This document shows positions 1-17,249 of a stretch of 64,000 nt of DNA, piece by piece. Source of the DNA: Herpetosiphon giganteus. GTDB taxonomy: Bacteria > Chloroflexota > Chloroflexia > Chloroflexales > Herpetosiphonaceae. Position 1 is the stretch's first letter. Each line of letters opens with the position of its first letter. Under the pieces are notes generated by a model. The model was not told the DNA's origin, made no database searches, and saw only the letters and a program-made list of their open reading frames with translations. Location of the stretch: contig NZ_JAFBCZ010000017.1 of the NCBI RefSeq assembly GCF_016907925.1, positions 1 through 64,000 of the forward strand, given 5' to 3'. Made by a program: the position numbers and the translations under genes.

Positions 1-61
1 CATCGAGGACGTTCTGCGTTAAGCCAAGGGGTTTAGGGTTCATCCTTTCGGCATGCATCAT
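1..61 (-). CDS. Possible partial CDS running off the left edge
   Basis: An open frame begins at the ATG whose complement is 59-61 and reads leftwards without a stop to the window edge (20 codons). It starts 14 nt after the stop of the small gene at 76-306 on the same strand, so the two could form an operon. A second in-frame ATG at 41-43 follows a purine-rich GAAAGG. No family can be recognised from so few residues. The ribosome site is weak, so this is a tentative call. Confidence 0.35.
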   Translation of the reverse strand, partial: MMHAERMNPKPLGLTQNVLD

Positions 62-75
62 CACAATCCGTTCAT

Positions 76-306
76 TTAACTAGCAACAGTGGTTACTAGG
101 GCTGCTTGTTCGCTAGTTATCGCTTGCAGTGCTGCTACGCCATCGCGCTCAATTTGCTTGGCAAGATGCAATACATCGGCAGGAAACTCATCAGGATACT
201 CTCCTTGCAGATCTTCAAACCAAACCACGAAGAGTTCAATATGCTCAAGGATTAGTGCGCGTAGCCCTTCGGGCGGCACACAATAAAAGTGTAGTCGAAT
301 GCCCAT
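76..306 (-). CDS. Small acidic hypothetical protein (76 aa)
   Basis: A 76-residue protein rich in Leu, Glu and Ala, with no signal peptide or membrane segment; the middle is strongly acidic. I do not recognise a family. The start is supported by a GAGGAG Shine-Dalgarno sequence about 5 nt upstream of the ATG at 304-306. The overlapping plus-strand frames have no comparable ribosome site and are treated as shadows. It probably shares a transcript with the frame running off the left edge. Confidence 0.6.
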   Translation of the reverse strand: MGIRLHFYCVPPEGLRALILEHIELFVVWFEDLQGEYPDEFPADVLHLAKQIERDGVAALQAITSEQAALVTTVAS

Positions 307-424
307 TGTTTCTCCTCATAAATCAATCAAACGGCTCCTACTGTAGCATGGCACGCTCAGATTCAATTAAGCCTTTTGGCCGAAGATTGCTAAGCAAAAT
401 GCTCAACTAAGATCACAATCCCCC

Positions 425-452
425 TTGACAAATGCAAAAGTATTGATACTAT
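425..452 (+). promoter_or_regulatory. Putative sigma-70 promoter of the TerC leader
   Basis: A perfect -35 hexamer TTGACA (425-430) is followed after 16 nt by TACTAT (447-452) as the -10. The predicted transcription start near 459 places the riboswitch immediately at the 5' end of the RNA, which is the usual arrangement. Confidence 0.6.
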
Positions 453-463
453 ATATCCATACG

Positions 464-572
464 TTCCGTTGGGGAGTAGCCACCTGCATCAACAGGGTTT
501 GCAATCGTCAATCCAGAAGCAATTTCTCGGTTGCAAACAATACGCACTGCGTAATTTGGTCAGACCAACATT
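464..572 (+). ncRNA. yybP-ykoY family (Mn2+) riboswitch
   Basis: The invariant GGGGAGTAGC of this class lies at 471-480. P1 is formed by GTTGG (468-472) with CCAAC (565-569). A short hairpin CCTG/CAGG (483-486/493-496), a longer helix GTTTGCAA/TTGCAAAC (497-504/531-538) with the class-typical GTCAAT inside it, and a hairpin ATACGC/GCGTAAT lead to the 3' loop element CAGACC (561-566). Order and sequence match the known Mn2+-sensing aptamer. The downstream gene is a TerC-family membrane protein, a classic target (compare alx in E. coli). Confidence 0.85.
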
Positions 573-599
573 GGCTTTGATTGCCGTGTTGGTTTTTTT
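565..599 (+). terminator. Riboswitch-controlled intrinsic terminator
   Basis: CCAACA (565-570) can pair with TGTTGG (587-592), followed by seven T residues (593-599). The 5' arm is the same CCAAC used by P1 of the aptamer, so terminator and aptamer are mutually exclusive. Ligand binding that stabilises P1 should let transcription continue into the TerC-family gene (inference: an ON switch). Confidence 0.75.
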
Positions 600-638
600 G
601 TGTCGACCAACCACGGCCTTGCAGGAGGCAATTTCACA

Positions 639-1601
639 ATGGATACGATGGTTTGGATGTGGATTGGCTTTAACGTTTTCGTTTTGGCCATGCTGGCGCT
701 CGATTTAGGCGTGTTTCATCGCTCAGCCCACGAGGTTTCAATCAAAGAAGCAACCTTGTGGAGCGTGGCCTGGATTGGCTTAGCAGCGCTTTTCAACCTC
801 GGGATTTACCTCTTCTGGCAGCAGCTCGTTCCTACAAGTAGCTATACCAACGGCGAAGCAGCCTTGGCCTTTATGACCGGCTATCTGATTGAAAAATCAC
901 TTAGTATTGATAACATTTTTGTGTTTGTGTTGGTATTCGGCAGCTTTGCTGTGCCAGCCAAATATCAGCATCGTGTGTTGTTCTGGGGTGTGCTTGGGGC
1001 TTTGGTAATGCGCGGAGCAATGATTGGCGCTGGCGCGGCCTTGATTCGCGAATTCCACTGGATTATCTACATTTTCGGGGCGTTTCTGATTGTAACGGGG
1101 ATCAAGATGGCATTTCATCAGGAGCAAACGCTTGATCCAAAGAACAATATTTTGGTGCGCAGCTTTCGCCGTTTGATGCCAGTAACTGATGAATACCACG
1201 AAGATAAATTCTTTGTACGCAAAGCTGGCGTATTGATGGCAACGCCGCTGTTCTTGGTGCTGTTGATGATTGAAGCGACAGACTTGATCTTTGCTGTCGA
1301 TTCGATTCCGGCAATCTTTGCAGTGACCCAAGAGCCGTTTTTGGTCTATACCGCGAATGTATTTGCGATTTTGGGCTTGCGTTCGCTCTACTTCGTGCTC
1401 GCCGGAATGGTGCACAAGTTTCATTATCTCAAGCTTGGTTTGGCGTTTGTGCTCAGCTTTGTGGGGGTCAAGATGCTCTTGGTCGAAACCGCATTCAAAA
1501 TTCCTTCGGGGATTGCGCTAGGTGTGGTGGCCACGATTATCGTTGTCGCAATTGGCGCTTCGTTGATTCGTGCGAAGCGTTTGGAAGCTGTCAAAAGCTA
1601 A
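639..1601 (+). CDS. TerC/Alx family integral membrane protein (320 aa)
   Basis: A polytopic membrane protein of the TerC family. Acidic intramembrane positions include D in FVLAMLALDLGVFHR near the N-terminus, the EKSLSIDNIFVF segment and EATDLIFAVDSIPAIFAV, the family's hallmark stretches. Members are implicated in manganese efflux or metal loading of exported proteins. The start at 639 is chosen over the longer frame because AGGAGG lies at 623-628, 10 nt upstream, and the longer frame would begin inside the terminator. Length is normal for the family. The riboswitch upstream fits a manganese-related role. Confidence 0.9.
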   Translation: MDTMVWMWIGFNVFVLAMLALDLGVFHRSAHEVSIKEATLWSVAWIGLAALFNLGIYLFWQQLVPTSSYTNGEAALAFMTGYLIEKSLSIDNIFVFVLVFGSFAVPAKYQHRVLFWGVLGALVMRGAMIGAGAALIREFHWIIYIFGAFLIVTGIKMAFHQEQTLDPKNNILVRSFRRLMPVTDEYHEDKFFVRKAGVLMATPLFLVLLMIEATDLIFAVDSIPAIFAVTQEPFLVYTANVFAILGLRSLYFVLAGMVHKFHYLKLGLAFVLSFVGVKMLLVETAFKIPSGIALGVVATIIVVAIGASLIRAKRLEAVKS

Positions 1602-1614
1602 ACTCTGATTGGGC

Positions 1615-1646
1615 AAGGCCGTGGGTTTCAATAAACCCACGGCCTT
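1615..1646. terminator. Bidirectional terminator
   Basis: Perfect 14-bp inverted repeat (1615-1628 and 1633-1646) with loop CAAT. The arm ends give a T-run on each strand, so it can terminate both the TerC-family gene and the convergent metalloprotease-like gene. Confidence 0.85.
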
Positions 1647-1652
1647 TTTGCG

Positions 1653-3536
1653 TTATTCAGCTAAAGCGTAGATCAAGCCTTGGCTGTAGTAAGTGCGTAA
1701 ATCGACGGTCAATAAGCCTAATTCTGGGCTGGTGGCAACAATTGGCACCGCATTCCAGCCAGCGGTTGGATTGGCGGGATTGTATACCAAAACAGTTGGG
1801 CCATTGCTACTGAATGCGCTTGGATCATAGCTCAATTGCGCATATAACGGTGGTTGGTTGCCAGACCAAGCTAATAAACGTTTATCGCGAATCAAATAGG
1901 GCTGAATTAACATTGGCCATTGTTTGATCGTGTAATTTTGGAGATTGTTCAGGTTGGTGCATAATGGCGCTGGTTGATAGACGGCTATTGTTGTGCCGGT
2001 AATATCAGCAGCAACTTGGGTTTGAAGATCGAGTCCAACCCCACCATCAGCAATTGGCGCATGAATTTCGGCTGTTGCTGGCCCAAAACCACCAGCAATT
2101 TGATACCAGGTGGCAATTGGCGTGTTGAAATCGGTGCTATAGGCATAAATATAATTGTGATAGCTGGCTAAGCCGGCAATTTCATCAGTTCGTAATTGGA
2201 ATGTCGTGCCAAAGCTGCCAGTGTTGCTAATATCAAGCCCTGCAATCGTGCGGCACTTGCCACCAGCAGGACAAAACGCTAAGTTTACCTTTTTACCATG
2301 AACGCCACATTCCTGGCCTTTGACCTCAATCGCATTAATTTGCGGCAATGTGCTGTTGGTATTCAGCATTGGCTTAATTTGTAAATTGGCAACCCAGCGC
2401 TGATTTACTAAGCTAAAGTCGTTTTTAGCGGCTAAGATATTTTGGTTTGGGTAGATTGAATAGACTGTTTTATTGTGCCAATCGCGCGCCAAAATTAGGG
2501 CGCGATCTTTGGCCGAGGTATCGATGCCCAACCAGGCTTCTTGCGTGTTGGCTTGCAGCGTCCCTTGATCAATAATCTGCTGCGGGCTGGCTAAATCGCC
2601 TTTGATGCTAAACCCGAGGGCTTGATTATCGTTGGCTCCATTGTATTCAACGACGCTGCTGGTGCCTTTGGCGCTATTGGGCATGAAATTGACAATTGCC
2701 GTGCCTTGGGGCTGCATAATGCTGGGCGTGCTGCTTGGCACTAAACCATAGAGCATTTCCACCGTTTTCCAATCATTCAGCCCATACATTAAATCTTGTG
2801 GTGTTTGATCGCAATGATACGCAGTGCGTGAGAAACCGCGCAAGTTGCTGGCGCTATAGTGATACGACATCAGCGAATTATGGTTTGTCCGATTACGTGG
2901 CATCTCAGCACTAAGGTCGTTACTGGTTGAACTACAATAGGTATAATTGGCAGTGTTCAAATCGGGCGCATAGCCATCGTGCAGGCCCAAAATATGGTGG
3001 CCAAGCTCGTGACTGATCGTTTGGCTGCCAGCAACATCTGACCAGAGGCCACAACGGGCATTGATGCCGTTCCACAAGCGGCCAAGCATAATTGCTGCGG
3101 GCACAAAATGCACTTTGCCTGCTTGGGTGTTGACGGTACGGAGGCTATTTTCAAAGCCGCCCAAAAAAGCCGTTGGCCGATACTCATTGCTGGCCAAAAT
3201 CCGAATATCAGCATCGTTCCAATGCTCGCCATTGGTATAGACCGAATATTGCTCGACCCAAACTTGGCCTTGGGTCGCTTGATACAAGGTTTGGCTGGTT
3301 TCTTGCAGCGCGGTTTCGAGCACATCTTGCATAGCTGTGTAGGTCAGATCTTTACATGTGCTGCCCTCAGTTGGGCGTAAAAGATCTTGTTGGCCTGGCT
3401 GCCATTCGAGTGAAACAATTAAATGAATGCTTTCAAAAGGGCTGCTCGCCTTCGCAGCATGTGGTTGATTTGCGGTCATCAGCAGGGTTAAACATAAACT
3501 ACTGATGAGGACTAAGCTAAATTTGCGCCAAAACAT
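1653..3536 (-). CDS. Secreted metzincin-like zinc metalloprotease (627 aa)
   Basis: The N-terminus (MFWRKFSLVLISSLCLTLLM...) is a signal peptide with a probable cleavage after an Ala-rich segment near residue 30. The motif HELGHHILGLHDGY matches the extended zinc site HExxHxxGxHD of metzincins. The C-terminal half is probably beta-rich but matches no domain I recognise. The start at 3536 is preferred over the longer frame (3662) because GGAG lies 8 nt upstream and the signal peptide begins there. It diverges from the CHAT gene by 96 nt. Substrate unknown; secretion fits a degradative or predatory lifestyle. Confidence 0.75.
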   Translation of the reverse strand: MFWRKFSLVLISSLCLTLLMTANQPHAAKASSPFESIHLIVSLEWQPGQQDLLRPTEGSTCKDLTYTAMQDVLETALQETSQTLYQATQGQVWVEQYSVYTNGEHWNDADIRILASNEYRPTAFLGGFENSLRTVNTQAGKVHFVPAAIMLGRLWNGINARCGLWSDVAGSQTISHELGHHILGLHDGYAPDLNTANYTYCSSTSNDLSAEMPRNRTNHNSLMSYHYSASNLRGFSRTAYHCDQTPQDLMYGLNDWKTVEMLYGLVPSSTPSIMQPQGTAIVNFMPNSAKGTSSVVEYNGANDNQALGFSIKGDLASPQQIIDQGTLQANTQEAWLGIDTSAKDRALILARDWHNKTVYSIYPNQNILAAKNDFSLVNQRWVANLQIKPMLNTNSTLPQINAIEVKGQECGVHGKKVNLAFCPAGGKCRTIAGLDISNTGSFGTTFQLRTDEIAGLASYHNYIYAYSTDFNTPIATWYQIAGGFGPATAEIHAPIADGGVGLDLQTQVAADITGTTIAVYQPAPLCTNLNNLQNYTIKQWPMLIQPYLIRDKRLLAWSGNQPPLYAQLSYDPSAFSSNGPTVLVYNPANPTAGWNAVPIVATSPELGLLTVDLRTYYSQGLIYALAE

Positions 3537-3632
3537 ACACTCAACTCCTTTAATTAATCCGTAAAAGAGCGTGACACCTGTTACATAGATAAAGACGGAC
3601 GTGCGGCTAAATTCTTTCTGTAGGAGGTTGCT

Positions 3633-6167
3633 ATGACTGCTCTCGATGCTGAGTTTGCGCATCGCGCACTCTTATTGGTGTTTGAACCGTTTGATCCTGA
3701 GCTGTGGCCGCTGATTGCTCCAGCCGCACCAAGCGTCGCCCAACTCCAAGCCGCTGGTTGGTTGCAAACGACCGCCGAAGGCTGGCAGATTCCTGCTGAG
3801 CGCCGCGAACAACTCCAAGCTGAGCCAGCAGCATTGCGGGCTGCTTATCAGCAATTAATTGCTGCTGAATTGGCTCATGCTGCTCACAACCCTGCGCTGG
3901 CAACCCGTTTGTTTGCTGATCTGCGAACCTTTGCCGAATTGCTGATTCGCCAAGCGCCGCATGAATTAGCCGATTTGGTCAAGCAAATTCCCACTGAATT
4001 AGCGCCAAGCACTGCTGATCGCCAGCTGTTGGAGTATTATTGTGGGCTTGCTGCTGGCCTGCATGATCAATATGCAGAAGCATGTACGTTGCTCAGCCAA
4101 TTATTGGCGCAACCAGACCTCGAACCGATGATTCGCGGGCGAGCGCTGAACTCCGATGCCACCTTTGCCCGTTATAGCGGCAACTACGATCGGGCGTTGG
4201 CCAATTATCAGGCTAGTTTTGCGCTTTGGGAAGCCCAGGCTGATCCGGTGCGCCAAGCCTATGTGCTGCTGAACGAAGGCAGTTTGCGCTACCATTTGCA
4301 AGAATATCGAGCTGCTGAGCGCTGCTTGAATAGCAGTTTGGCGACCTTGCAAGCTCAAAATCTGCTCTACCCTCAAGCCTTGGTGCTGATCAATTTGGGT
4401 TTGTTGGCCCGTGATCGCGGCAATTGGGTGCAATCGCTGAGCCATTTTGAGCAAGCAGAAGCGATTTTACAAGCAGAAAATGCCACCGATTTTCTTGGCC
4501 GAATTGCCAATAATCTTGGGGAATTAGCCTTGTTGCAAGGCCAATATGCAGCAGCACGCCAGCATTTTGAGCAAGCCTTAGCCCAGATGAGCAGCCGTGT
4601 GTATCATATTGATGCCTATTTGAATTATGGCTTAGCCTGGCATGTCGAGGGCATGGTTGAACAAGCAGAAATCGCCTATCGCCAAGCACTTGATTTGGTT
4701 GAAAGTGTTGAGCGCCAAGAAATTGCGGCTTTGGTATGGTTTCGCTTAGGCCAAGTTGCGGCGGCGCGCAACGATCATCAACAAGCTGAGCAGCATTATT
4801 TGCAAGCGATTGATTTGATTGAGGCAATGCGTGCGCCAATTTTGGCCGAAAGCCTGCAAATTAGCTTGATGGGGCGTTGGCAACAAGTCTATGAAGGTGC
4901 GATTGCGGCCTATCTGGCTCAAGATAAGCTTGAACAAGCCTTTTTAATGGCCGAAAAAGCGCGAGCACGGGCGCTCAACGATTTGCTAGCCCGCAATGGC
5001 CAAACCAATCAAGCATTTGGCACGATTCCCAGCCTTAGCGATGTGCAACAGGGCTTGGCGCAGGGCAGCCTGATGCTCGATTATATGACGCTTGGCGCGG
5101 TTGGGCCGGAGGCCAGCCTCTTGGCTGCATTGCCAGCGACGGCCAAGGCCTTGCGCAGTTTGTTAATTCAACCAGCAGCAACCTGGCTGTTTGCCATTAC
5201 GACCGATGAGGTTCAAGCCTTCAATTGCCAGCTTGACCCAAATATTCTCTTGGCAACTTCGCCGTTTCAGTGTGATGGGCGGCGCTTTTTACGCCCAGCA
5301 ATTTTGCACCGTCTCGCCCAACGTCTCCTTGGCCCAGCCCAAAATTTCTTGCAACAGGCGCAGCAGGTGGTGGTTGTGCCGCATGGCGCTTTGCATCATG
5401 TGCCGTGGAATGCACTTTTGTTGGGTCAGCTTGGGCTTGATCTGCCAACAACCACGATTCCCAGTGCTGCCAGTTATCTCCAATTAAGCCAACGCCAACC
5501 AAGCCATGCCAGCGAGCCATGTGTGGCCTTGAGCTATGCGGGCGGAGTTGAGCCAGCTTTGGTGCATACGTATGCTGAGGCCGCAGCAGCAGTAGCGGCG
5601 CTTGGTGGCCAGCATTATCCGCTGCCAGCGCCAAATATCGATCAGCAGCTTGGGGATTATCGCATTGTGCATATTGCCTGTCATGGCGTGTTTGTGCTCG
5701 ACCAACCATTGGCCTCGTGGCTACAATTTGGCCCCAATCAGACAGTTTCGGCCTTGGATATATTAACCAACTGGCAGTTGGATGCTGATTTGGTGGTGTT
5801 GAGTGCTTGTCAAAGTGGGGTGAGCGAAATTGTGCGTGGCGATGAGCCATTTGGCTTGGTACGGGCGTTTTTGGCGGTCGGGGCACGGGCGGTTTTGGTT
5901 ACGCTCTGGCCAGTTGACGATGTGGCGAGTGCTGTCTTGATGCAGCTGTTTTATCAGGCCTTGCAAGCGGAATTTGAGCCAGCAGAAGCACTTCAACAGG
6001 CGATTCAACAGATTCGTAGCATGCCGCAGGCACAGGTAAGCATCCCGCTTGCGCCAAGCCAGCAGGGTGAATACCCGTTTGCCGATCCCCATTATTGGGC
6101 AGGCTATCAGTTGATTGGAGTTGGCAACTCGATTTCTAAAGTTAAGCCAGCAACATCGGCTGCTTGA
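3633..6167 (+). CDS. TPR-CHAT domain protein (844 aa)
   Basis: After an N-terminal region of about 130 residues come tetratricopeptide-type helical repeats (roughly 130-420) and a C-terminal CHAT domain, a caspase-like clan CD peptidase fold. The presumed catalytic dyad is His684 in HIACHG and Cys726 in LSACQSG; the conserved tail GDEPFGLVRAFL...VLVTLWPVDD is also present. No signal peptide, so it is probably cytoplasmic. AGGAGG lies 6 nt before the ATG. Its 3' end overlaps the convergent anti-sigma gene by 61 nt. TPR-CHAT proteins such as Csx29 of type III-E CRISPR systems act as regulated proteases; a similar role here is inference. Confidence 0.85.
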   Translation: MTALDAEFAHRALLLVFEPFDPELWPLIAPAAPSVAQLQAAGWLQTTAEGWQIPAERREQLQAEPAALRAAYQQLIAAELAHAAHNPALATRLFADLRTFAELLIRQAPHELADLVKQIPTELAPSTADRQLLEYYCGLAAGLHDQYAEACTLLSQLLAQPDLEPMIRGRALNSDATFARYSGNYDRALANYQASFALWEAQADPVRQAYVLLNEGSLRYHLQEYRAAERCLNSSLATLQAQNLLYPQALVLINLGLLARDRGNWVQSLSHFEQAEAILQAENATDFLGRIANNLGELALLQGQYAAARQHFEQALAQMSSRVYHIDAYLNYGLAWHVEGMVEQAEIAYRQALDLVESVERQEIAALVWFRLGQVAAARNDHQQAEQHYLQAIDLIEAMRAPILAESLQISLMGRWQQVYEGAIAAYLAQDKLEQAFLMAEKARARALNDLLARNGQTNQAFGTIPSLSDVQQGLAQGSLMLDYMTLGAVGPEASLLAALPATAKALRSLLIQPAATWLFAITTDEVQAFNCQLDPNILLATSPFQCDGRRFLRPAILHRLAQRLLGPAQNFLQQAQQVVVVPHGALHHVPWNALLLGQLGLDLPTTTIPSAASYLQLSQRQPSHASEPCVALSYAGGVEPALVHTYAEAAAAVAALGGQHYPLPAPNIDQQLGDYRIVHIACHGVFVLDQPLASWLQFGPNQTVSALDILTNWQLDADLVVLSACQSGVSEIVRGDEPFGLVRAFLAVGARAVLVTLWPVDDVASAVLMQLFYQALQAEFEPAEALQQAIQQIRSMPQAQVSIPLAPSQQGEYPFADPHYWAGYQLIGVGNSISKVKPATSAA

Positions 6168-6805
6168 ACATCGCTAAAGACTGCTTCGCCCCAAACATCG
6201 GTTTCGCTGCTTTGGCGGCCTGAGGCGGCGATCAAATGCACCCCAATTTGGGCCAAATCGGGCCATTCGCGGTCGTGGAGTTGCACTTGCACCCGCACGC
6301 GGCAAACATTTGCTTCCGCTGGGTAAATTGCCAAATTGATCTCACGCAACGGCTGAATGCTTGGCGTGAAGGTCAATTGCAATGGCTGATTGGTTTCGCC
6401 GCGCAAGGCTGGCTGGGCTGGTTGCAACGCGGCAAAGCCATCGAGCAAGCTTTGATTGAGGCTGATTTGGATGTTTTTGCCAACCAAGGCTAGGGCAGAA
6501 GAAACCCGCTCGTACCAACTTGGCGCTTGCTGCAACCAGCCTAAATCTGGTGTTGGCACTGGCAAATTGGTATCGACAGCGGTAAACGAACGATCGAGGG
6601 CGGCGAAATATTCCGCGCAACTGACGCAGGCATCTAAGTGTTGTTGGATGCTGGGTGGTAAGTATTGTTGGGCGATGCTCTGGTTGCGCTCAGTGTAGAT
6701 GGCCAGTTGATCACAGCATGTGTCGCATGTGTGTTGATCAACTGGCGCGACCAAGGTTTGTACCAAATGCTGCATGGCATTCTGGCTCCAGTTTGCTTGA
6801 TTCAT
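6107..6805 (-). CDS. Soluble zinc-finger anti-sigma factor (232 aa)
   Basis: The N-terminal 70 residues carry Cys/His motifs (HTCDTCC and HLDACVSC, the Hx3Cx2C pattern of zinc-binding anti-sigma domains). There is no transmembrane segment; instead the C-terminal 120 residues look like a beta-sandwich (TDVWGEAVF resembles carboxypeptidase-regulatory-like or similar repeats). It lies 62 nt downstream of an ECF sigma gene on the same strand, the usual order sigma then anti-sigma. The 3' end overlaps the convergent TPR-CHAT gene. Assignment as the partner of the sigma factor is inferred from context and the zinc motif. Confidence 0.7.
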   Translation of the reverse strand: MNQANWSQNAMQHLVQTLVAPVDQHTCDTCCDQLAIYTERNQSIAQQYLPPSIQQHLDACVSCAEYFAALDRSFTAVDTNLPVPTPDLGWLQQAPSWYERVSSALALVGKNIQISLNQSLLDGFAALQPAQPALRGETNQPLQLTFTPSIQPLREINLAIYPAEANVCRVRVQVQLHDREWPDLAQIGVHLIAASGRQSSETDVWGEAVFSDVQAADVAGLTLEIELPTPIN

Positions 6806-6867
6806 AGAACGTTCCTACTACAACTAATCAGCGGCTTCAGCATGGAGACGCATGCAAGCGCCTCAAC

Positions 6868-7473
6868 CTATCCTTCTTCGACAAATTCGCGTAAGCGGGC
6901 GATTAATGCAGGATCGCGGCGCAGCGCTGCCAAATTTTTGGCCCGAGTTACCTGAATGTGCGAGGCTAAAACCGGTTTTTGGGCTAATTCACTTTCGGTT
7001 TGCGCCAGCAGATCATCATTTTGCTCGCTGAAATAGCGCCCAACCACCACGCGGCGTGAACGGGCGCTGAGCGGCCCAGCATCGATTACTTCAGTTAGGA
7101 TACCGCGCAGATCATCGAGTTGCAAGGTTTCGATTGGGGCAGCCCATGGCCCATGTTCAGCATCGGGCATGCTGGCGCGGCGGCGATGCTCAGGGCGGCG
7201 CAGCTCGTCGAGCACCGTGCGGCGCACAATTTGCATACACCACTCGCGGAAGGTGGCTGGATTTTGGCATTGCCCAAGATTGCGATGAATTTTGATCAAG
7301 GCTTTTTGGGTGCAATCGGTGGTAATTGCATCGCCATCGGGGTAGGCATGCAACATGGCGTAGGCCACGCGATACAGCATGTGCCAAAGTGTCGTATAGG
7401 CCTCGTGCTGCGCGAGCGAATCTTGTTCAAAGCACGCCGTATAGAGGGCTGTGCTAGTCATAGTATCGTGCAT
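6868..7473 (-). CDS. ECF-type RNA polymerase sigma factor (201 aa)
   Basis: Region 2 is recognisable (YRVAYAMLHAYPDGDAITTDCTQKALIKIHRNL, then FREWCMQIVRRTVLDELRR), matching the ECF sigma-70 core-binding and -10 recognition region. Region 4 (about residues 125-195) is divergent from the canonical form. CCTCCT at 7479-7484 (AGGAGG on the coding strand) sits 5 nt before the ATG at 7471-7473. It is the first gene of a two-gene unit with the zinc-finger anti-sigma gene. Confidence 0.8.
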   Translation of the reverse strand: MHDTMTSTALYTACFEQDSLAQHEAYTTLWHMLYRVAYAMLHAYPDGDAITTDCTQKALIKIHRNLGQCQNPATFREWCMQIVRRTVLDELRRPEHRRRASMPDAEHGPWAAPIETLQLDDLRGILTEVIDAGPLSARSRRVVVGRYFSEQNDDLLAQTESELAQKPVLASHIQVTRAKNLAALRRDPALIARLREFVEEG

Positions 7474-7795
7474 CCAATCCTCCTAATAGACCTTGGTTGG
7501 GGTTGCGAGGGCTGTCTTGCTACGCAGCAACCATTGGTTACGTTGCGAACCAAGCTTGCCTCTGCACATCAGTGCTCCAATTTCATACCCAATCTCGAAC
7601 GAGCGACCTAGCCTAAAAGTCCCCATTTTATCCTAGGCTCTTGATTTATTGCTGAGTTTGAGGCAAATTTAACCCCAAGGGATGAGATAGTAGTAGTAAA
7701 GCTGCTACTTTGGGGGGATAGTGGCATCACCCATAATTATTGCTTGCGTTGCTGATGCCATGCGACACATAACCAATCCATTCGGAGGTTCTCAT
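7474..7795. other. Divergent intergenic region between sigma factor and receiver gene
   Basis: No coding frame is supported in these 320 nt. They hold an inverted repeat TTGGTT/AACCAA (7534-7539/7548-7553), operator-like, and nearer the receiver gene a stem-loop: CCCCAA (7673-7678) with TTGGGG (7710-7715) enclosing AGTAGTAG/CTGCTACT (7689-7696/7702-7709). The latter has no T-run. Promoters for both flanking genes must lie here, but no hexamer pair stands out. Confidence 0.4.
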
Positions 7796-8263
7796 ATGGT
7801 AGGTGCTGCACTTCGGCCAAAACCAACCAGCGTCGCTGCAACCCAGGCCAAAGTTATGGTGATTGAAGATAATGTTGATAGTATGAATTTGGCCTTGTTG
7901 CTGCTGCGCGAGCGGGTTCAAGTGGCTTATTGTAATGCTCGCGCCTCTGGCGATGCCTTTTTCAATTGGTTGAGTTCGCCACAAGTTCAACAAAACCCCT
8001 CCTTAGGAATGCTCGACCTGATTTTACTAGATATTCGGATTCCGCGAGAGAATGGTTACATGGTGCTGCAAAAGTTACACGTCTTGCCCGATTTCAAGCG
8101 CACCAAAATTGTCGCGATGTCGGCCTATAGCAGCCGCGAAGATGTTGAAAAGATGCGCTTGGCTGGCTTCGATGGGTTTGTAGCGAAACCGGTCTCAGTT
8201 AAAACCTTTCCTGATTATATTGTGCGGATTTTGCGTGGCGAAACGATTTGGGATTTGTATTAA
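7796..8263 (+). CDS. Stand-alone response regulator receiver protein (155 aa)
   Basis: A single receiver domain: the acidic pocket VMVIEDN, the phospho-acceptor Asp in LILLDIRIP, the conserved Ser of IVAMSAYS and the Lys of GFVAKPV are all visible. No output domain follows, so it may relay phosphate or act by protein contact (CheY/Spo0F/DivK-like). The ATG at 7796 is preferred to the longer frame from 7721 because GGAGG (7784-7788) is 7 nt upstream. No histidine kinase is adjacent; the orphan kinase at 43152 is one possible partner, without direct evidence. Confidence 0.8.
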   Translation: MVGAALRPKPTSVAATQAKVMVIEDNVDSMNLALLLLRERVQVAYCNARASGDAFFNWLSSPQVQQNPSLGMLDLILLDIRIPRENGYMVLQKLHVLPDFKRTKIVAMSAYSSREDVEKMRLAGFDGFVAKPVSVKTFPDYIVRILRGETIWDLY

Positions 8264-8320
8264 ACCACACGCTGATTCCTCACGTAGCATAGCCTGTACG
8301 ATCTAGCTGGGGAATTGGCG

Positions 8321-9826
8321 ATGGATTATGATCTGATTGTGATTGGCGCAGGCATTGCAGGGTTGTCTGCCGCCGCCCTCTTAGCCAACGATGGCTACCG
8401 CGTGCTCGTGCTTGAGGCGCATATCGAGCCTGGTGGCTGTGCTTCTTCCTATCAACGTAAACGCCCCAATGGCGATCAATATATTTTTGATGTTGGTGCA
8501 ACCGTTTTTGCTGGTTTTCGGCCTGGCGGTGCGCATCATTGGCTTGGTCAAAAATTGGGCTTAACTTGGCCAATTCAGCCCCTCAACCCAGCCATGGAGG
8601 TGTGGTTACCCGATCTGCGGGTGACGCGTTGGGGCGATGAACGTTGGCGTGCAGAGCGTCAGCGGCTTTGCCCAAGCCAAGCGTGGGAAGCAGAGCAATT
8701 TTGGCGCGAGCAAGAACAGGTGGCCGAGGTTGCTTGGCGTTTTGCTGGGCGCATGCCGCCGATGCCGCCAGAATCGCTGGCAGATGTGGGCCGCTTGACC
8801 AGCACAATTCGGCCTGAAATGCTGCATTTACTGCCAGCCTTACCGCGTACCGTCAAACACGTCTTAGATCGCCATAAGCTTGATGATCGGCGCATGCGCG
8901 CCTTTATCGACGGTCAATTATTGATCAGCGCCCAAAGTAGCAATGCTGAATGCGCGTGGCTCTATGGCGCGGTTGCACTCGATTTGGCGCGCATTGGCAC
9001 TTACTACGTGGAAGGCGGCGCTTGGAATTTGGCCAAAACGCTTGAACAAGCGTTAATCAAAGCTGGCGGCGAAATTCGCTATCGCCAAAAAGTTAGCCAA
9101 ATTCAGACTGATCGCGGCCAGATTGTGGGTGTGCAGACGGAGCAAGGCGAGCGTTTGCGAGCGCGGCATGTGATTGCGAATACAACCATGTGGGATCTGG
9201 CCGATTTGCTCGATCAGCCGCCAACTTGGCTGTTGCGGCGCAGAATTGAAGCGGTTCCGCAAGGCTGGGGGGCCACAACGCTCTATTTGGGCATCGACGA
9301 GGCGGCAATTCCCCACGGTTTGGCTGAGCACCACCAAATTATTGCTGATTATGCTCAAGCGCTGGGCGAAGCTAATAGCGTCTTTATTTCGTTACACCCT
9401 GCCGCCGATCGTTCGCGTGCGCCGCAGGGCCAACGTGCGATGACCGTTTCAACCCATACTAATGTGAGTCGCTGGTGGCATTGGCGACAAACCGATCCCG
9501 CGCGTTATCGGGCTGAAAAAGCGGCGATGGCTGAGCGTATGCTCGATACGGTTGAACTAGCGCTGCCCACAATTCGCCAGCATCTTCGCTATCAACAAAT
9601 TGGCACGCCAGTGTCGTTTGCGCGCTATACCCAACGCAAGCGGGGCATGGTTGGCGGCTTGCCGCAGTGGCGCTCAATCTCGGGGTTGCTCAGTTTGGGG
9701 CCGCAAGCTGCAAAGATTAATGGTTTATGGCTGGTGGGCGATAGTACGTTTCCTGGCCAAAGCACCGCGGCGGTGACCCAAAGTGCGATTCAGGTCTATC
9801 AGAAAATTCGCCGTGCTGCTCGTTAA
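8321..9826 (+). CDS. Phytoene desaturase/carotene isomerase-type FAD oxidoreductase (501 aa)
   Basis: An N-terminal dinucleotide-binding fold (VIGAGIAGLSAAALL, then an acidic end of strand two, VLEAHIEPGGCASS) and the C-terminal carotenoid-type FAD segment (GLWLVGDSTFPGQSTAAV) place it in the COG1233 family with CrtI, CrtD and CrtISO enzymes. It probably desaturates or isomerises a carotenoid; the exact step cannot be told. A start at ATG 8321 is preferred over TTG 8315 because GGGGA (8309-8313) is then 7 nt away. No other carotenoid gene lies nearby. Confidence 0.75.
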   Translation: MDYDLIVIGAGIAGLSAAALLANDGYRVLVLEAHIEPGGCASSYQRKRPNGDQYIFDVGATVFAGFRPGGAHHWLGQKLGLTWPIQPLNPAMEVWLPDLRVTRWGDERWRAERQRLCPSQAWEAEQFWREQEQVAEVAWRFAGRMPPMPPESLADVGRLTSTIRPEMLHLLPALPRTVKHVLDRHKLDDRRMRAFIDGQLLISAQSSNAECAWLYGAVALDLARIGTYYVEGGAWNLAKTLEQALIKAGGEIRYRQKVSQIQTDRGQIVGVQTEQGERLRARHVIANTTMWDLADLLDQPPTWLLRRRIEAVPQGWGATTLYLGIDEAAIPHGLAEHHQIIADYAQALGEANSVFISLHPAADRSRAPQGQRAMTVSTHTNVSRWWHWRQTDPARYRAEKAAMAERMLDTVELALPTIRQHLRYQQIGTPVSFARYTQRKRGMVGGLPQWRSISGLLSLGPQAAKINGLWLVGDSTFPGQSTAAVTQSAIQVYQKIRRAAR

Positions 9827-9860
9827 TCGAAATTATGGATTGATGATAATTTTTGATTCT

Positions 9861-9924
9861 CCTCCCTTCCGTCCCTCCGCTGGAGGGAGACGCAGGGGGT
9901 TTTCATCACCCCCAAATATTTGGG
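9861..9924 (+). repeat. Dispersed hairpin repeat, copy 1
   Basis: The core shares CTTCCGTCCC, ACGCAGGGGGTTTTCATC and two hairpins with a second copy at 17132-17194. Here the first hairpin is TCCCTCC/GGAGGGA (9872-9878/9882-9888) and the second GGGGGT/ACCCCC (9895-9900/9908-9913); the 14-bp palindrome CCCAAATATTTGGG (9911-9924) follows. It lies between the 3' ends of two convergent genes. Confidence 0.75.
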
Positions 9925-9964
9925 TTGTGGATTGTTCTGGTGTTTCTATTACCCCTTTAAACAC

Positions 9965-9994
9965 AGTATGCAGGGCTAAGCAACCCTGCATACT
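9965..9994. terminator. Strong stem-loop between convergent genes
   Basis: Perfect 11-bp inverted repeat AGTATGCAGGG (9965-9975) and CCCTGCATACT (9984-9994) with an 8-nt loop, between the flavoenzyme gene and the convergent ppa gene. No long T-run, so termination is likely but not certain. Confidence 0.5.
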
Positions 9995-10041
9995 TAAACC
10001 TTAATCCTGAACCCTAGCCCCTGAATCCTGATCCCTCAAAC

Positions 10042-10578
10042 CTACTCAGGCTTGCGAAAATTGTCGTTGTAGAGTTGAATTGAGTCTTGGATGCGTTGCT
10101 TGGCGGCTTCAGCACCTTGCCATTCGCCAACTTCAACGGTTTTGTTTTCTAAGGCTTTGTATGAGGCAAAGAATTGGGTTACTTCTTTGATGAAGTGTGG
10201 TGGCACATCGCCCAAATCTTTGATATTGGCAAAATATGGGTCGTTGGCTGGAACGGCGAGAATTTTATCGTCGTTTTCGCCGCCGTCGATCATGCCAAAC
10301 ACGCCAACTGGGCGCGCTTCAATCAAGCAGCCAGGAAAGGTTGGGAAGTTGATCAGCAAAATGACATCTAATGGGTCGCCATCATCGCAATAGGTTTGGG
10401 GAATTAAGCCATAATCGCCTGGGTAATAGACTGCTGATGAAAGCACTCGATCAAGCTTGACCAAACCGGTATCTTTATCGATTTCATACTTATTGCGTGA
10501 GCCACGGGGAATTTCAATCACTACGTTAATAATTTCTGGCGCATCGTCGCCAAATGGCACATCATGCCAAATATTCAC
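10042..10578 (-). CDS. ppa: Inorganic pyrophosphatase, family I (178 aa)
   Basis: Hydrolyses pyrophosphate to phosphate and drives biosynthetic reactions. The family I hallmarks are present: IEIPRGSRNKYEID, the YPGDYGLIPQT segment and the metal-binding DGDPLDV with further Asp residues in GENDDKILAV. The best start is the GTG at 10576-10578: GGAGG lies 8 nt upstream, and the protein then begins VNIWHDVPFG, as family members do. The upstream ATG options place this Shine-Dalgarno inside the coding sequence. Length is typical of bacterial enzymes. Confidence 0.92.
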   Translation of the reverse strand: MNIWHDVPFGDDAPEIINVVIEIPRGSRNKYEIDKDTGLVKLDRVLSSAVYYPGDYGLIPQTYCDDGDPLDVILLINFPTFPGCLIEARPVGVFGMIDGGENDDKILAVPANDPYFANIKDLGDVPPHFIKEVTQFFASYKALENKTVEVGEWQGAEAAKQRIQDSIQLYNDNFRKPE

Positions 10579-10616
10579 AGGGAATTCCTCCATACATGGG
10601 TTATCAAAACGGCGCA

Positions 10617-10644
10617 ACTATACCACGTTTTAGGTTGTTTGCAA
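10617..10644 (-). promoter_or_regulatory. Putative ppa promoter
   Basis: On the minus strand TTGCAA (complement of 10639-10644) and TATAGT (complement of 10617-10622) are separated by 16 nt, giving a start site about 30 nt before the proposed GTG codon of ppa. Confidence 0.45.
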
Positions 10645-10761
10645 TGCATTTGACGCACTGCATTGTAGAGAAATATGCCACAAGGGGCTATAATTCACTA
10701 CGTTGTGGCTATTAGGATAGCATACAATCACGCAATAGCTTACTAAACATGGAGCAGCCTC

Positions 10762-12189
10762 ATGCGTTTTCCCATTGTAATTCAAGGCGGCATGGGTGTC
10801 GCCGTATCTGATTGGCGGCTGGCCAAGGCCGTTGCAAGCGCAGGTCAACTTGGTGTAGTTTCTGGGACTGGGATCAATGTAGTGCTTGCTCGGCGTTTGC
10901 AAGAGGGCGATCATGATGGAGCGATGCGCCGAGCGCTAGCGCATTTTCCGATTGCTGGCTATGTCGAGCGCATTCTCGAACGCTATTTTATCGAGGGTGG
11001 CAAGCCTGCTGATCAGCCATATCGGGCTGTGCCGATGTATACTGCCGTCCCATCAAACGAATGGCAGATTTTGAATGTTGTGGCTTCGTTTGTCGAAGTG
11101 TGGTTGGCCAAGGAAGGCCACAAGGGCGTTGTGGGCATCAACTTGCTGGAAAAAGTGCAAATGCCCAATTTATCGGCCTTGTATGGCGCAATGTTGGCCG
11201 AGGTTGATTATGTGCTGATGGGCGCGGGCATTCCGCGCGAGATTCCAGGCGTGCTTGATCAGTTTTCAGTTGGTGAGGCTACTAGCCTGAATATTTACGT
11301 TGAGCAAGCTGGGGCTGACGATAAATTAGCTGTCCATTTTGATCCCAAGCAAATGTTTGATAATCCACCTGCCACGCTCAAGCGCCCAGAATTTTTGGCA
11401 ATTATTGCCTCGAATACCTTGGCGATTGCCTTGGCCAAAAAAGCCACCGGTAAGGTCAATGGCTTTATCGTCGAAGGCCCAACGGCTGGGGGCCATAATG
11501 CACCGCCACGCGGCCAACCAGTCTTTAATGAACGCGGCGAGCCAGTCTATGGTCAGCGCGATGTGGTCGATTTGGTCAAATTGCAGGATTTAGGCTTGCC
11601 CTTCTGGATGGCTGGTTCGTATGGCTCGCCTGAGCGCTTGGCTGAAGCGTTGGCTAGTGGTGCGGTTGGCATTCAAGTTGGCACTGCATTTGCCCTCTCG
11701 AACGACTCAGGGTTTAGCCCGGAAATTCGTCAATCGCTGCTAACCGACATTGCCAACGATAGCCTGACGATTTTTACTGATGCCTTGGCCTCGCCAACTG
11801 GCTTTCCCTTCAAAGTCGCTGAGTTGAACACCACTTTAGCCTTAGAGCCGACCTACAAAGAACGCCCACGGATCTGCGATTTGGGCTATTTGCGGGTGGC
11901 CTACCCGCGCGAAGATGGCACGATGGGCTTTCGCTGCCCAGCAGAGCCAGTCGATCAATATGTGAAAAAAGGCGGCGATATTAACGACACAACTGGGCGT
12001 AAATGCTTGTGCAATGCCTTGTTTGCCAACATTGGTATGCCGCAGCAACGCAAAGAATATACTGAGCAACCCTTGGTGACCTTGGGTGATGATATTAAAA
12101 CTGTCGCCGCTTTGCTTGAAATTCATCCGCAGGGCTTTAGCGCGGTTGATGTATTGGAATATTTGTTGGCAGCAGTGCCCCAACAATAG
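10762..12189 (+). CDS. Nitronate monooxygenase-like FMN protein (475 aa)
   Basis: A TIM-barrel FMN enzyme of the nitronate monooxygenase/2-nitropropane dioxygenase family: IQGGMGVAVSDWRLA at the N-terminus, GFIVEGPTAGGHNAPPRG in the centre and a GAVGIQVGTAFALS phosphate-binding segment. At 475 residues it is longer than typical nitronate monooxygenases (about 310-360), with a C-terminal extension that includes several Cys residues (about 390-430). The physiological substrate is unknown. GGAG lies about 8 nt before the ATG. It diverges from ppa, with a perfect TATAAT at 10689-10694 in the gap but no clear -35. Confidence 0.75.
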   Translation: MRFPIVIQGGMGVAVSDWRLAKAVASAGQLGVVSGTGINVVLARRLQEGDHDGAMRRALAHFPIAGYVERILERYFIEGGKPADQPYRAVPMYTAVPSNEWQILNVVASFVEVWLAKEGHKGVVGINLLEKVQMPNLSALYGAMLAEVDYVLMGAGIPREIPGVLDQFSVGEATSLNIYVEQAGADDKLAVHFDPKQMFDNPPATLKRPEFLAIIASNTLAIALAKKATGKVNGFIVEGPTAGGHNAPPRGQPVFNERGEPVYGQRDVVDLVKLQDLGLPFWMAGSYGSPERLAEALASGAVGIQVGTAFALSNDSGFSPEIRQSLLTDIANDSLTIFTDALASPTGFPFKVAELNTTLALEPTYKERPRICDLGYLRVAYPREDGTMGFRCPAEPVDQYVKKGGDINDTTGRKCLCNALFANIGMPQQRKEYTEQPLVTLGDDIKTVAALLEIHPQGFSAVDVLEYLLAAVPQQ

Positions 12190-12216
12190 CGCCTCCTAGC
12201 TGAATAGATCGATTAA

Positions 12217-12250
12217 AAGCAGCAGCAATCATGGGCGATTACTGCTGCTT
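12217..12250. terminator. Bidirectional terminator-like stem-loop
   Basis: AAGCAGCAG (12217-12225) pairs with CTGCTGCTT (12242-12250); the stem continues with AATC/GATT around loop ATGGGC. On the minus strand it is followed by TTTTAATC. It separates the nitronate monooxygenase-like gene from the convergent small gene. Confidence 0.6.
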
Positions 12251-12255
12251 GATCG

Positions 12256-12486
12256 TTAAGCGGCCAATGTGAGATCTGCCAAGGTAATGCGGCACGCCAT
12301 GCCCTCTAAAACAGCAGTCATCGCCTTATCTGCTTTAATTTGATTGGTCAAGGTGGCAAATAGAAGGTAGGCACAGGCACAAACTTGGGTATCTAACTCA
12401 TTCGATAAATGATCTTGGACGCTGATGCTCATGCTGATGGCATCGATTTTCAAAAATAAATCATCAAGCAATTCGTATACATTCAT
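12256..12486 (-). CDS. Small hypothetical protein (76 aa)
   Basis: A 76-residue, mostly helical protein with a CAC motif in the centre, a further Cys near the C-terminus and a hydrophobic end (ADLTLAA). AAGGAG lies about 8 nt before the ATG, so translation is well supported. I do not recognise a family. It follows the 93-aa gene on the same strand after 27 nt, so the two are probably co-transcribed and may work together. Confidence 0.65.
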   Translation of the reverse strand: MNVYELLDDLFLKIDAISMSISVQDHLSNELDTQVCACAYLLFATLTNQIKADKAMTAVLEGMACRITLADLTLAA

Positions 12487-12513
12487 AACGTACTCCTTTT
12501 TTACTCACTAAAC

Positions 12514-12795
12514 TTAGGCGCAACTGGTCAGCGTGGTGGCTGCAACAACCGACTTTTGGGTTGCGACTAAGGCCTGAATCAAGCGTTGGTTGGCGGGAAT
12601 TTGCTGGCTGAGGCTTAATTGCATAATTTTGATCAAGGCGTTGGCTTGGCGCACTTGCTCAGCAGTGATGGTATTTTGTTCTTGCAGCATAGCCATCAAT
12701 TGTTCTAATTCACGAATTGCTGTTGCCAATGAGGCATGAGGATCGATAATTTCGGCCAATAATTGATTGAAGCGTGCTTCTTGCTCTGGAGTCAT
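12514..12795 (-). CDS. Small helical hypothetical protein (93 aa)
   Basis: A 93-residue protein rich in Gln, Ala, Leu and Glu, predicted to be almost entirely helical and possibly coiled-coil, ending in TTLTSCA. GGAGG precedes the ATG by about 8 nt. No family recognised, no signal peptide or membrane span. It is first in a two-gene unit with the 76-aa protein. Confidence 0.65.
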   Translation of the reverse strand: MTPEQEARFNQLLAEIIDPHASLATAIRELEQLMAMLQEQNTITAEQVRQANALIKIMQLSLSQQIPANQRLIQALVATQKSVVAATTLTSCA

Positions 12796-12893
12796 TGCGT
12801 TTCCTCCGCTAAACCATCGAATCTGTCGCTACTGTATATAGATGCAGAAACAGGCTTTTTTTTGCATGCTGCAATCAAATTCATCAAAATTGG

Positions 12894-13826
12894 CTAAATT
12901 GGGGATTTTACGAGGTTTGCTAATGCGTCAGGCCAGCTTGGATACTCAAAATGAAATCCATGCTCAAGCAAGCGTTGGGGAATAACATTGCGACTTTTGA
13001 GCACTAATTCGGCTTCGGTGCGCAGCATCCATGCGCCGATCTGCATCAGCGGGCTAGGGATAGGCAAGCCAACGCGCATGCCCAAGGCTCGGCGTAAATG
13101 CAGCATAAACTGATGATTTGGCAGTGGTTGGGGTGCGCTGAGATTAATTGGCCCTGCTAGGTTTGGTTGTTCAATCAGCCATGTTATAGCACGCACCAGA
13201 TCATGGCTATGAATCCATGCGACATATTGTTGGCCATTGCCGATTGTTCCACCGAAGCCAGATCGTGCTAAACGACAAAGAATATCGAACACACCACCAC
13301 GATCGTGGCTCATCATCATGCTGGTGCGCAACATAATTTTGCGCGTCTGCGGAGTTTTGGCAGCAACTGCCGCATCCTCCCACGCCTTAACCAGATCAAC
13401 ATTAAACTGCCAACGTGCTGAGGCATTGGTTTCATTGCCCCCAATTGTATGCTGGGCTTCGGTTTGTGGCTCACGGCTATGGGCATAGATGGCTGAGCCG
13501 CTCGCTTGCAGCCAGAGCCAAGGTGGCTTTGAAAGCTGCGCAATTGCTTGCCCAAGCAAGCGTGTGGTCTCGATTCGCGAACGCCAAAGCTCGCTGCGAT
13601 TGGCGGCGGTATAGCGGCAATTAACGCTTTTGCCCGTCAGATTAATCAAAACATCACTAGTTTCCAATTGCTCAACCCAAGGCCCAAGCTGAACCGCATC
13701 CCAACTGATTGTTGTCTGCTTGCTTGCTGAACGCCCCATAATCTGAATAGTATGGCCTTGATTGCGCCAATAGCTGGTTAATAATTGCCCAATCTGACCG
13801 CTGCCGCCAACAATCACAATCCGCAT
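12894..13826 (-). CDS. TIGR01777 family NAD-dependent epimerase (310 aa)
   Basis: The N-terminal MRIVIVGGSGQIGQLL is the glycine-rich NAD(P)-binding turn of an extended short-chain dehydrogenase. The C-terminal segment from ALGMRVGLPIPSPLMQIGAWM to the end fits the DUF1731 tail that defines the TIGR01777/YfcH group. Its substrate is unknown in general. The start at 13826 is chosen because GAGG lies 8 nt upstream and the Rossmann fold begins at once; the longer frame (13976) runs into the MerR gene upstream. It lies 74 nt downstream of the MerR-type gene. Confidence 0.82.
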   Translation of the reverse strand: MRIVIVGGSGQIGQLLTSYWRNQGHTIQIMGRSASKQTTISWDAVQLGPWVEQLETSDVLINLTGKSVNCRYTAANRSELWRSRIETTRLLGQAIAQLSKPPWLWLQASGSAIYAHSREPQTEAQHTIGGNETNASARWQFNVDLVKAWEDAAVAAKTPQTRKIMLRTSMMMSHDRGGVFDILCRLARSGFGGTIGNGQQYVAWIHSHDLVRAITWLIEQPNLAGPINLSAPQPLPNHQFMLHLRRALGMRVGLPIPSPLMQIGAWMLRTEAELVLKSRNVIPQRLLEHGFHFEYPSWPDALANLVKSPI

Positions 13827-13900
13827 TGTCAATACCTCGCAAGGCTTAATAATAAATAAAACATTTGTGCTATACTCTGCTTGATAATTTGAAGTAATAA

Positions 13901-14632
13901 CTAAATAATTGGTAGTGGCGCTAGTGGAAGGTACGTCTTGATATAACTCACTAAGCTGGTGTTTGCTTGCAAACATTCCCAGCTTTGCTGGGCCAAGGCG
14001 GCACGGCGGTGTTCGATGGCGGCAACTGCGCGTTGGGGCTGCTGCTGATCGAGAGTTGCTAAAGTGGTACGAATCGAGCCAAAATCGGCGTTTGCTTGAC
14101 GTAATAAAACAATAATGCGCAAACGGCGCAACTGCCGCTCATCATAATAGCGATATTTATTCGATTGCTGGCGAATTGGCTGCAACAGACCTTGTTGCTC
14201 CCAAAAACGCAAGGCCGAAATTGGCACGCCAACGGCTTTGGCCGCCTCGCCAACCAAAAGCCGTTGCTGCTGGCGCTGGCTGGGTGGTAATTGGTCGGCC
14301 ACCGCTTTGAGCAAGCTCAGCGTCTGATCAAGCTGCTGGCGAATGTTATCGAGCTTGGCGTGATGCTGATTAATCAGATTAAACGCTGTTTGATGATCAG
14401 TTTGGTGGAGCGCCGCCATAATTGTTTGCGCAGCGCGCCAACCATAACCATTGATCATGGACTGGGCAGTGTTTAGCGCATCAATATGTTGCTGGGTATA
14501 GCGGCGATAGCCATTCGGGCCACGTTCGACAGCTGGTAAAAAGCCCTCAGCTTCATAATTGCGCACTTGCTGAACACTGATATTAATCGCTCGCGCCAAA
14601 TCAACGGTACGAAAATAACGCTCAACCTTCAT
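13901..14632 (-). CDS. Tandem-MerR transcriptional regulator (243 aa)
   Basis: Two MerR-type winged-helix domains in one chain. The first (residues 5-75) reads TVDLARAINISVQQVRNYEAEGFLP with NGYRRYTQQHIDAL; the second (about 125-195) reads VGEAAKAVGVPISALRFWEQQGLL with NKYRYYDERQLRRL. Between them is a helical linker where a normal MerR dimerisation helix would be. The duplication is unusual: most MerR proteins have one such domain and an effector domain. AAGG lies 6 nt upstream of the ATG. The epimerase downstream may be co-transcribed. Confidence 0.82.
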   Translation of the reverse strand: MKVERYFRTVDLARAINISVQQVRNYEAEGFLPAVERGPNGYRRYTQQHIDALNTAQSMINGYGWRAAQTIMAALHQTDHQTAFNLINQHHAKLDNIRQQLDQTLSLLKAVADQLPPSQRQQQRLLVGEAAKAVGVPISALRFWEQQGLLQPIRQQSNKYRYYDERQLRRLRIIVLLRQANADFGSIRTTLATLDQQQPQRAVAAIEHRRAALAQQSWECLQANTSLVSYIKTYLPLAPLPII

Positions 14633-14818
14633 GTTAAACCTTCATCTTACACTTGAGGCTTTAATTGGAGATTTGAGTGTGAAAAGCGCCTAAAAAAGCC
14701 TAAAACTCACGAGACTTGCATCTATGTTCTAGAATAACTCTAGATCGTTTGGATAGCAAGTTGATTGCTCGTAACGATTCACATAGCGGCCAGAGATTTG
14801 TAGTTATCAAGGAGTCTG

Positions 14819-17056: not shown

Positions 17057-17131
17057 TTGAATTGATTTGGAAGCCAATGGCAATCTGGATCGATTTATAG
17101 CAGGAATGCAGGTAAACCACCAAGCGAATAT

Positions 17132-17194
17132 TAGGGGGTGCAGGGGGATGAAAACCCCCTGCGTTTCCCGCCTTGAGGCGGGACGGAAGGGTGG
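17132..17194 (-). repeat. Dispersed hairpin repeat, copy 2
   Basis: Reverse-oriented copy of the element at 9861. Hairpins: CAGGGGG/CCCCCTG (17141-17147/17155-17161) and TCCCGCC/GGCGGGA (17166-17172/17177-17183). Relative to copy 1, a T-A pair in the latter stem has become G-C, so both arms changed together. It is also between convergent gene ends. Confidence 0.75.
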
Positions 17195-17215: not shown

Positions 17216-17249
17216 GATTGTAAAACACATATCCGAAAACTAAGCAGCG

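Follow-up and report, generated by a model that had tools for sequence, protein, structure and literature searches.

Proteolytic release of extracytoplasmic function (ECF) sigma factors runs, in the cases known to us, through membrane-bound anti-sigma factors, and cutting of a sigma inhibitor has, to our knowledge, been shown for only one CHAT protease, an accessory of CRISPR. This protease, Csx29, relieves inhibition by cleaving the inhibitor (PMC10028731). A locus in the first 64,000 nucleotides of contig NZ_JAFBCZ010000017.1 of Herpetosiphon giganteus (the window) combines a gene for a caspase-like tetratricopeptide repeat (TPR)-CHAT protein with genes for an ECF sigma factor and a soluble zinc-type anti-sigma factor, and raises the question of whether such control could also operate in the cytoplasm and independently of CRISPR. 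We consider it probable that it does: the locus would encode a protease-gated ECF sigma circuit in which the activated TPR-CHAT protein cuts the anti-sigma factor and thereby frees the sigma factor. Feature coordinates are collected in Table 1.

A CHAT protease gene converges with an ECF sigma/anti-sigma pair

The TPR-CHAT protein starts with a short winged-helix-like segment, followed by a TPR superhelix (residues ~65-430) and the CHAT protease domain. A Pfam scan placed the TPR repeats N-terminal to a PF12770 match at residues 557-829 (170 bits, cut-off 24), and the protein scored 174 bits in a whole-genome CHAT search. A complete catalytic dyad behind the TPR repeats, read from the DNA in a first-pass annotation, was borne out by the homologues: His684 and Cys726 are unchanged across 9 sequences in one alignment and 14 in another, and also in a third, and they fall opposite the HG and catalytic-Cys motifs of Csx29. 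The structure model (mean predicted local distance difference test score, pLDDT, 85.7) has Csx29 as its best structural match (Z 27) and also matches separase, while its TPR superhelix is structurally similar to the peptide-binding Rap and NprR proteins. By its sequence, the protein is a member of the CHAT cysteine protease family with the dyad present, and it is predicted to be proteolytically active. Residues ~1-60 (window 3633-3815) resemble a winged helix; comparable winged helices occur near STAND NTPases.

The sigma factor scores above the cut-off for PF04542 (29.5 bits, cut-off 24) and just below that for TIGR02937 (42.2 bits, cut-off 42.9). It consists of regions 2 and 4 only, in about 200 residues with a conserved C-terminal helix-turn-helix-like motif, and a bipartite ECF-type promoter is recognisable at its locus; both features are those of ECF (sigma-70 group 4) factors. 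Searching a plasmid collection with the sigma factor gave zero matches and hence no sign of plasmid spread.

The anti-sigma gene starts 62 bp behind the sigma gene and overlaps the TPR-CHAT gene by 61 bp at their 3' ends, confirming the convergent overlap described in the first-pass annotation. Scans against Pfam and NCBIfam did not recognise the protein, so its identity is argued from profile and gene context. A profile built from 18 homologues matches small zf-HC2-like zinc-domain proteins across the phylum, and an ECF sigma gene lies directly ahead in 19/19 loci checked. Two such profile-matched proteins were scanned, one of which matches zf-HC2 with an E value of 6e-4, slightly under the cut-off; the phylum-wide search with the full profile retrieved mostly the zinc domain alone. 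By profile and context, the 232-residue protein carries a class I zinc anti-sigma (ASDI/ZAS) domain and presumably binds the sigma factor. A 19-residue Kyte-Doolittle scan found no membrane helix (maximum mean 0.91 in the window protein, at most 1.47 in the 18 homologues), in agreement with the earlier description of the protein as soluble.

The anti-sigma model (pLDDT 82) consists of a helical anti-sigma domain, a low-confidence linker and a C-terminal beta-sandwich that bears a conserved W-P-L ... TDxWGxAxF motif. The linker joins the zinc domain to the sandwich and carries a motif (PxPDLxFL) that is conserved in homologues and paralogues. The suggestion that the cleavage site might lie in the beta-sandwich found no support, and the linker (residues 83-91) qualifies at least equally well. 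For the identity of the sandwich itself, the Foldseek and VIA-align matches were weak (Z no higher than 7.2, E values of 2e-3 or more) and belonged to MATH/TRAF and Ig folds; we took them as uninformative and set them aside. One family member (L050:2655-3404; L, G and C numbers are our labels for loci, genomes and contigs) is without Hx3Cx2C while the module around it is intact; zinc is thus not essential to the arrangement.

The module is conserved across Chloroflexota

A scan with a sigma profile, using one genome per species, identified 18 loci, all in Chloroflexota, the phylum covered by the profile (Herpetosiphon, Oscillochloris, Ardenticatenaceae, Caldilineaceae and other Anaerolineae). 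Related genomes make up most of the sample, which includes many metagenome assemblies, and genes in the loci were called mechanically. The TPR-CHAT gene stands beside the sigma/anti-sigma pair in 15 of the 18 loci, in both Chloroflexia and Anaerolineae, and the anti-sigma gene is present in 17. Two of the loci without an adjoining CHAT gene (L049 and L051) are short contigs, and at the third (L044) the anti-sigma gene is adjoined by a gene of transposon type; the genome of this locus, G006, retains CHAT on a different contig (G006:C4). The module contains no conserved defence genes.

Gene order varies around this linkage. The majority order is sigma, anti-sigma and a convergent CHAT gene, as in the window, while L088-L090 and L036/L043 have CHAT-peptidase-sigma-anti-sigma and L091 has a co-directional sigma-anti-sigma-CHAT order. 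Passive synteny was considered as the cause of linkage and rejected, because the linkage outlasts rearrangement and the pairing recurs in paralogues.

Presence of the two genes also coincides at the genome level. Among 82 genomes of the order, with a threshold of >900 bits for a strong, full-length TPR-CHAT protein, 14 have the sigma factor and 15 the CHAT protein; all 14 sigma genomes are among those 15, and 67 have neither. In the fifteenth CHAT genome (G007), the contig ends 143 bp before the anti-sigma gene, so that the sigma gene lies off the contig. One genus includes two species with both genes and two with neither. Fisher p values, uncorrected for shared descent, are 7e-15 when genomes are counted and 5e-7 when genera are. 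The linkage across Chloroflexota that the first-pass annotation had proposed to survey is therefore present and, like the co-occurrence among genomes, very strong; a lack of such linkage, which would have refuted the proposal, was not observed.

The window's genome contains paralogous modules as well. Of its 12 CHAT genes, four are no more than 3 kb away from an ECF sigma gene, against 0.41 expected (p 9e-4), and three of these four belong to full sigma/anti-sigma/TPR-CHAT sets in three different gene orders: the window locus (C17), C15 (CHAT-sigma-anti-sigma) and C29 (sigma-anti-sigma-CHAT). The C29 set (L125:6482-11044, G000:C29) is co-directional, with a further CHAT gene on the minus strand (L125:3004-4902) ~1.6 kb upstream of sigma. 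The paralogous CHAT-sigma-anti-sigma module is that of L029:101-2416 and L030:7002-13328. In H. aurantiacus, this C15-type module is divergent from a peptidase gene whose exported product has HExxH and, weakly, a CLCA-like motif.

An exported HExxH metallopeptidase is the conserved fourth partner of the sigma/anti-sigma/CHAT set. Its gene is divergent from CHAT in the window and lies within reach in 12/18 loci, and all homologues have a signal peptide, HExxH and then an Asp at a fixed distance. The start at 3536 was set by homology; the mechanical open reading frame, which reaches 3662, begins too early. A twin-arginine-signal protein of unknown family stands behind the peptidase at L032:5656-6861 and L036:10953-12122 and bears the sigma promoter described below.

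A predicted sigma promoter precedes the anti-sigma and peptidase genes

A dyad search upstream of the peptidase gene identified GGAAAG-N17-CGTC (core GAAAG-N17-CGTC) in 10/12 loci, whereas the maximum with shuffled sequences was 3. The fuller consensus, GGAAAGGT-N15-CGTCTTA, is of the bipartite ECF type. The motif is found toward the peptidase in 11/14 loci and, when transferred to the gap between the sigma and anti-sigma genes, is present there in 13/16. It was found toward CHAT in 0/14 loci and upstream of sigma in 0/16, and on the reverse strand it has one match in ~227 kb. The spread of the promoter is partly phylogenetic; the contrast of 13 versus 0 nonetheless holds within loci. The two Herpetosiphon sites are variants that are kept across species, and the strict pattern itself is not conserved there. 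A relaxed scan of the 64-kb window gave three matches, two of which are exactly these two sites.

Genome-wide, the strict pattern has 8 matches in G021, 10 in G024, 6 in G046 and 3 in G007, where the reversed pattern gives 0, 0, 1 and 0, respectively. In ten relatives that lack the module, the matches add up to 2. Zero strict matches were found genome-wide in the module-bearing Herpetosiphon, G006, G429 and G433. Exported proteins are the products of most open genes downstream of the genome-wide matches; among them are subtilases with I9 propeptides. In G024, the promoter also stands before genes for further exported proteins (GEVED-like, ChW repeats) at L119, L121, L123 and L124, three of which form a tandem array on C1070.

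The sigma factor is predicted from these motifs to transcribe the anti-sigma gene and exported proteases, but not CHAT. With the promoter standing before the anti-sigma and peptidase genes and none before CHAT, the CHAT protein is likelier to act above sigma, as a regulator, than below it as an effector. The protease-controlled circuit put forward in the first-pass annotation thus gains a predicted output, in that the promoter puts the anti-sigma factor and a secreted peptidase under sigma; its cleavage step would still follow from analogy.

Next to the module, a response-regulator receiver protein gene (7721-8263) is divergent from sigma, and the non-coding block between both genes is conserved in Herpetosiphon.

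Table 1. Positions of the module genes and their sequence features in the window
Feature	Position	Strand	Basis
Exported HExxH metallopeptidase gene, 627 aa, predicted sigma target	1653..3536	-	weak Reprolysin_5 match; signal peptide, HExxH
HELGHHILGLHD zinc-peptidase motif	2976..3011	-	motif reading in peptidase homologues
ECF-type promoter AGAAAG-N16-CGTC in CHAT/peptidase gap, toward peptidase	3594..3619	-	corresponding site in other loci
TPR-CHAT protein gene, 844 aa	3633..6167	+	open reading frame, Pfam scan, structure model
CHAT domain, residues 557-829	5301..6119	+	PF12770
Catalytic His684 codon	5682..5684	+	invariant in homologue alignments
Catalytic Cys726 codon	5808..5810	+	invariant in homologue alignments; pairs with Csx29 Cys
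Soluble zinc-type anti-sigma gene, 232 aa	6107..6805	-	profile, gene context, model
C-terminal beta-sandwich, residues 142-226	6128..6382	-	model, pLDDT >90 over most
Conserved linker VPTPDLGWL, residues 83-91, candidate recognition/cleavage segment	6533..6559	-	alignment, paralogues, low-confidence model region
Hx3Cx2C zinc motif (H56, C60, C63)	6617..6640	-	nearly invariant in homologue alignment; lost in L050
ECF-type promoter GGATAGGT-N15-CGTCT in sigma/anti-sigma gap, toward anti-sigma	6847..6873	-	conserved in six/six aligned Herpetosiphon sequences
ECF sigma factor gene, 201 aa	6868..7473	-	PF04542, TIGR02937; homologues in 18 loci

Proposed circuit and alternative explanations

In the proposed circuit, the soluble zinc-type anti-sigma factor would hold the ECF sigma factor in the resting state. 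The neighbouring CHAT protease would then be switched on by a signal from the cytoplasm, probably when a peptide or protein binds in the TPR superhelix; our guess that the signal is a peptide is made plausible by the likeness of the superhelix to Rap and NprR. The CHAT protease would cut the anti-sigma factor, most likely in the conserved, exposed linker that joins the zinc domain to the beta-sandwich. The freed sigma factor would transcribe the gene for the exported metallopeptidase, and in relatives those for subtilases and further exported proteins as well. Since sigma is also predicted to drive its own anti-sigma gene, this negative feedback would let the response shut itself off.

Several observations weigh against this circuit. 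Cleavage of the anti-sigma factor by CHAT is something that we infer by analogy to Csx29 and Csx30, and searching the PDB with the anti-sigma factor gave no match, nor was homology to Csx30 detectable. More distant sigma/anti-sigma relatives at L094 and L096 have no CHAT gene nearby. Moreover, CHAT could be a partner that docks or senses rather than cuts, and the zinc motif could instead mean redox control. The former would have the TPR region dock onto the beta-sandwich, which is a separate conserved domain and could serve for this, with CHAT acting as a sensor or scaffold that governs the anti-sigma factor. This may be the case in DdvA, an anti-sigma factor with a CHAT domain (PDB 8rot/8rw5) that matches the TPR-CHAT model over nearly its whole length. 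A His/Cys dyad that is invariant in all aligned module homologues is unexpected for a mere scaffold, however, and we regard non-proteolytic control as unlikely.

Control by redox state or zinc appears more improbable still. Here the anti-sigma factor would be a sensor of the RsrA/ChrR type that releases sigma by itself, and CHAT a co-inherited modulator that clears the anti-sigma factor or ends the response. Soluble zinc-type anti-sigma factors often sense oxidation (PMC7406223, PMC8999054), and Hx3Cx2C is nearly invariant in the homologues; yet L050 retains the whole module after losing the motif, and the predicted regulon consists of exported proteases rather than redox genes. The least probable explanation is that CHAT cleaves the sigma factor or another target and keeps the system off, as peptidases in ECF54 contexts are proposed to do by degrading sigma (PMC8999054), or that it is a defence or cell-death effector that shares the locus. 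CHAT domains do occur in the Borvo defence system, and the window protein gives weak PADLOC matches to BovA. An effector would be expected in the sigma regulon, which the missing promoter toward CHAT contradicts, and the module is without conserved defence genes; ECF54, in turn, is described as being without an anti-sigma factor, whereas one is present in nearly all loci here. Proteolytic release of sigma through cleavage of the anti-sigma factor is thus the explanation that we favour.

Comparison with known systems

The Csx29/Csx30/CASP-sigma system (CASP, Craspase) resembles the window in combining an ECF sigma factor and its inhibitor with a cysteine protease of TPR-CHAT type, and Csx29 matches the window TPR-CHAT protein best, both in structure and in sequence. 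The latter nevertheless scores 39 bits against NCBIfam NF041237, which has a cut-off of 300, and falls outside that family. Unlike Csx30, to which it has no detectable relation, the window inhibitor is a short zinc-type anti-sigma factor, and the predicted regulon is one of exported proteases, whereas that of CASP-sigma is cas1. The locus is also CRISPR-free, as the first-pass annotation had supposed: no Cas7-11, Csx30 or Csx31 neighbours were seen in the window or in the relatives' loci, and no CRISPR array in window 1-20000. Type III CRISPR RAMP proteins are encoded on other contigs only (G000:C19 and G000:C52), unlinked to the locus.

Among zinc-type anti-sigma factors, RsrA, ChrR and other zf-HC2 class I proteins likewise have an N-terminal Hx3Cx2C domain, no membrane helix and a gene right after that for the ECF sigma factor. 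ChrR also has an extra C-terminal domain. The present family differs from this class in its beta-sandwich, of a type absent from Pfam, and in its regular pairing with a TPR-CHAT protease.

The ECF54 group, mostly from Actinobacteria, has CHAT, subtilase and carboxypeptidase genes in its context and is described as lacking an anti-sigma factor (PMC8999054). Compared by gene context, its ECF sigma gene near CHAT and subtilase genes has a counterpart here, where subtilases and the metallopeptidase carry the sigma promoter; a difference is that a zinc anti-sigma gene adjoins sigma in 17/18 loci. This suggests that subtilases in ECF54 contexts may be targets rather than regulators, and that an anti-sigma factor of a kind that Pfam fails to recognise may be overlooked. 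EACC2-caspase systems also have protease genes adjoining those of an ECF sigma factor and a TPR protein (Kaur et al., 2021, PMC8195603). Their proteases are of the caspase type rather than CHAT, their effectors are trypsin-like and pore-forming proteins, and no zinc anti-sigma factor is described for them.

DdvA of Myxococcus xanthus, the anti-sigma factor of the ECF sigma factor DdvS, was found to contain a CHAT domain by structure and sequence match (PDB 8rot, 991 aa; titled transmembrane anti-sigma factor). It unites anti-sigma function and a TPR-CHAT-like fold in one protein and is an independent tie between the two. Whereas DdvA is transmembrane, the anti-sigma factor and the TPR-CHAT protein of the window are separate and soluble. 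Tentatively, TPR-CHAT proteins might be general, CRISPR-independent ECF activators that act through cleavage of soluble zinc anti-sigma factors; the Chloroflexota modules, with their control of secreted proteases, could then be the older, free-standing form, later captured by type III-E systems as Csx29/Csx30 and fused in myxobacterial DdvA.

The widespread CRISPR-free trio, with its predicted promoter and targets, offers a testable system for the function of bacterial TPR-CHAT proteases and suggests an origin of the CRISPR version. The window comes from a filamentous soil bacterium of predatory type in the Herpetosiphon group, and the circuit, if true, would let filamentous bacteria that are predatory or degrade polymers couple the production of secreted proteases to a cue from inside the cell. 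Related cases are known in Csx29, ECF54 and DdvA, and the CRISPR-free, protease-controlled ECF variant proposed here is new with respect to them.

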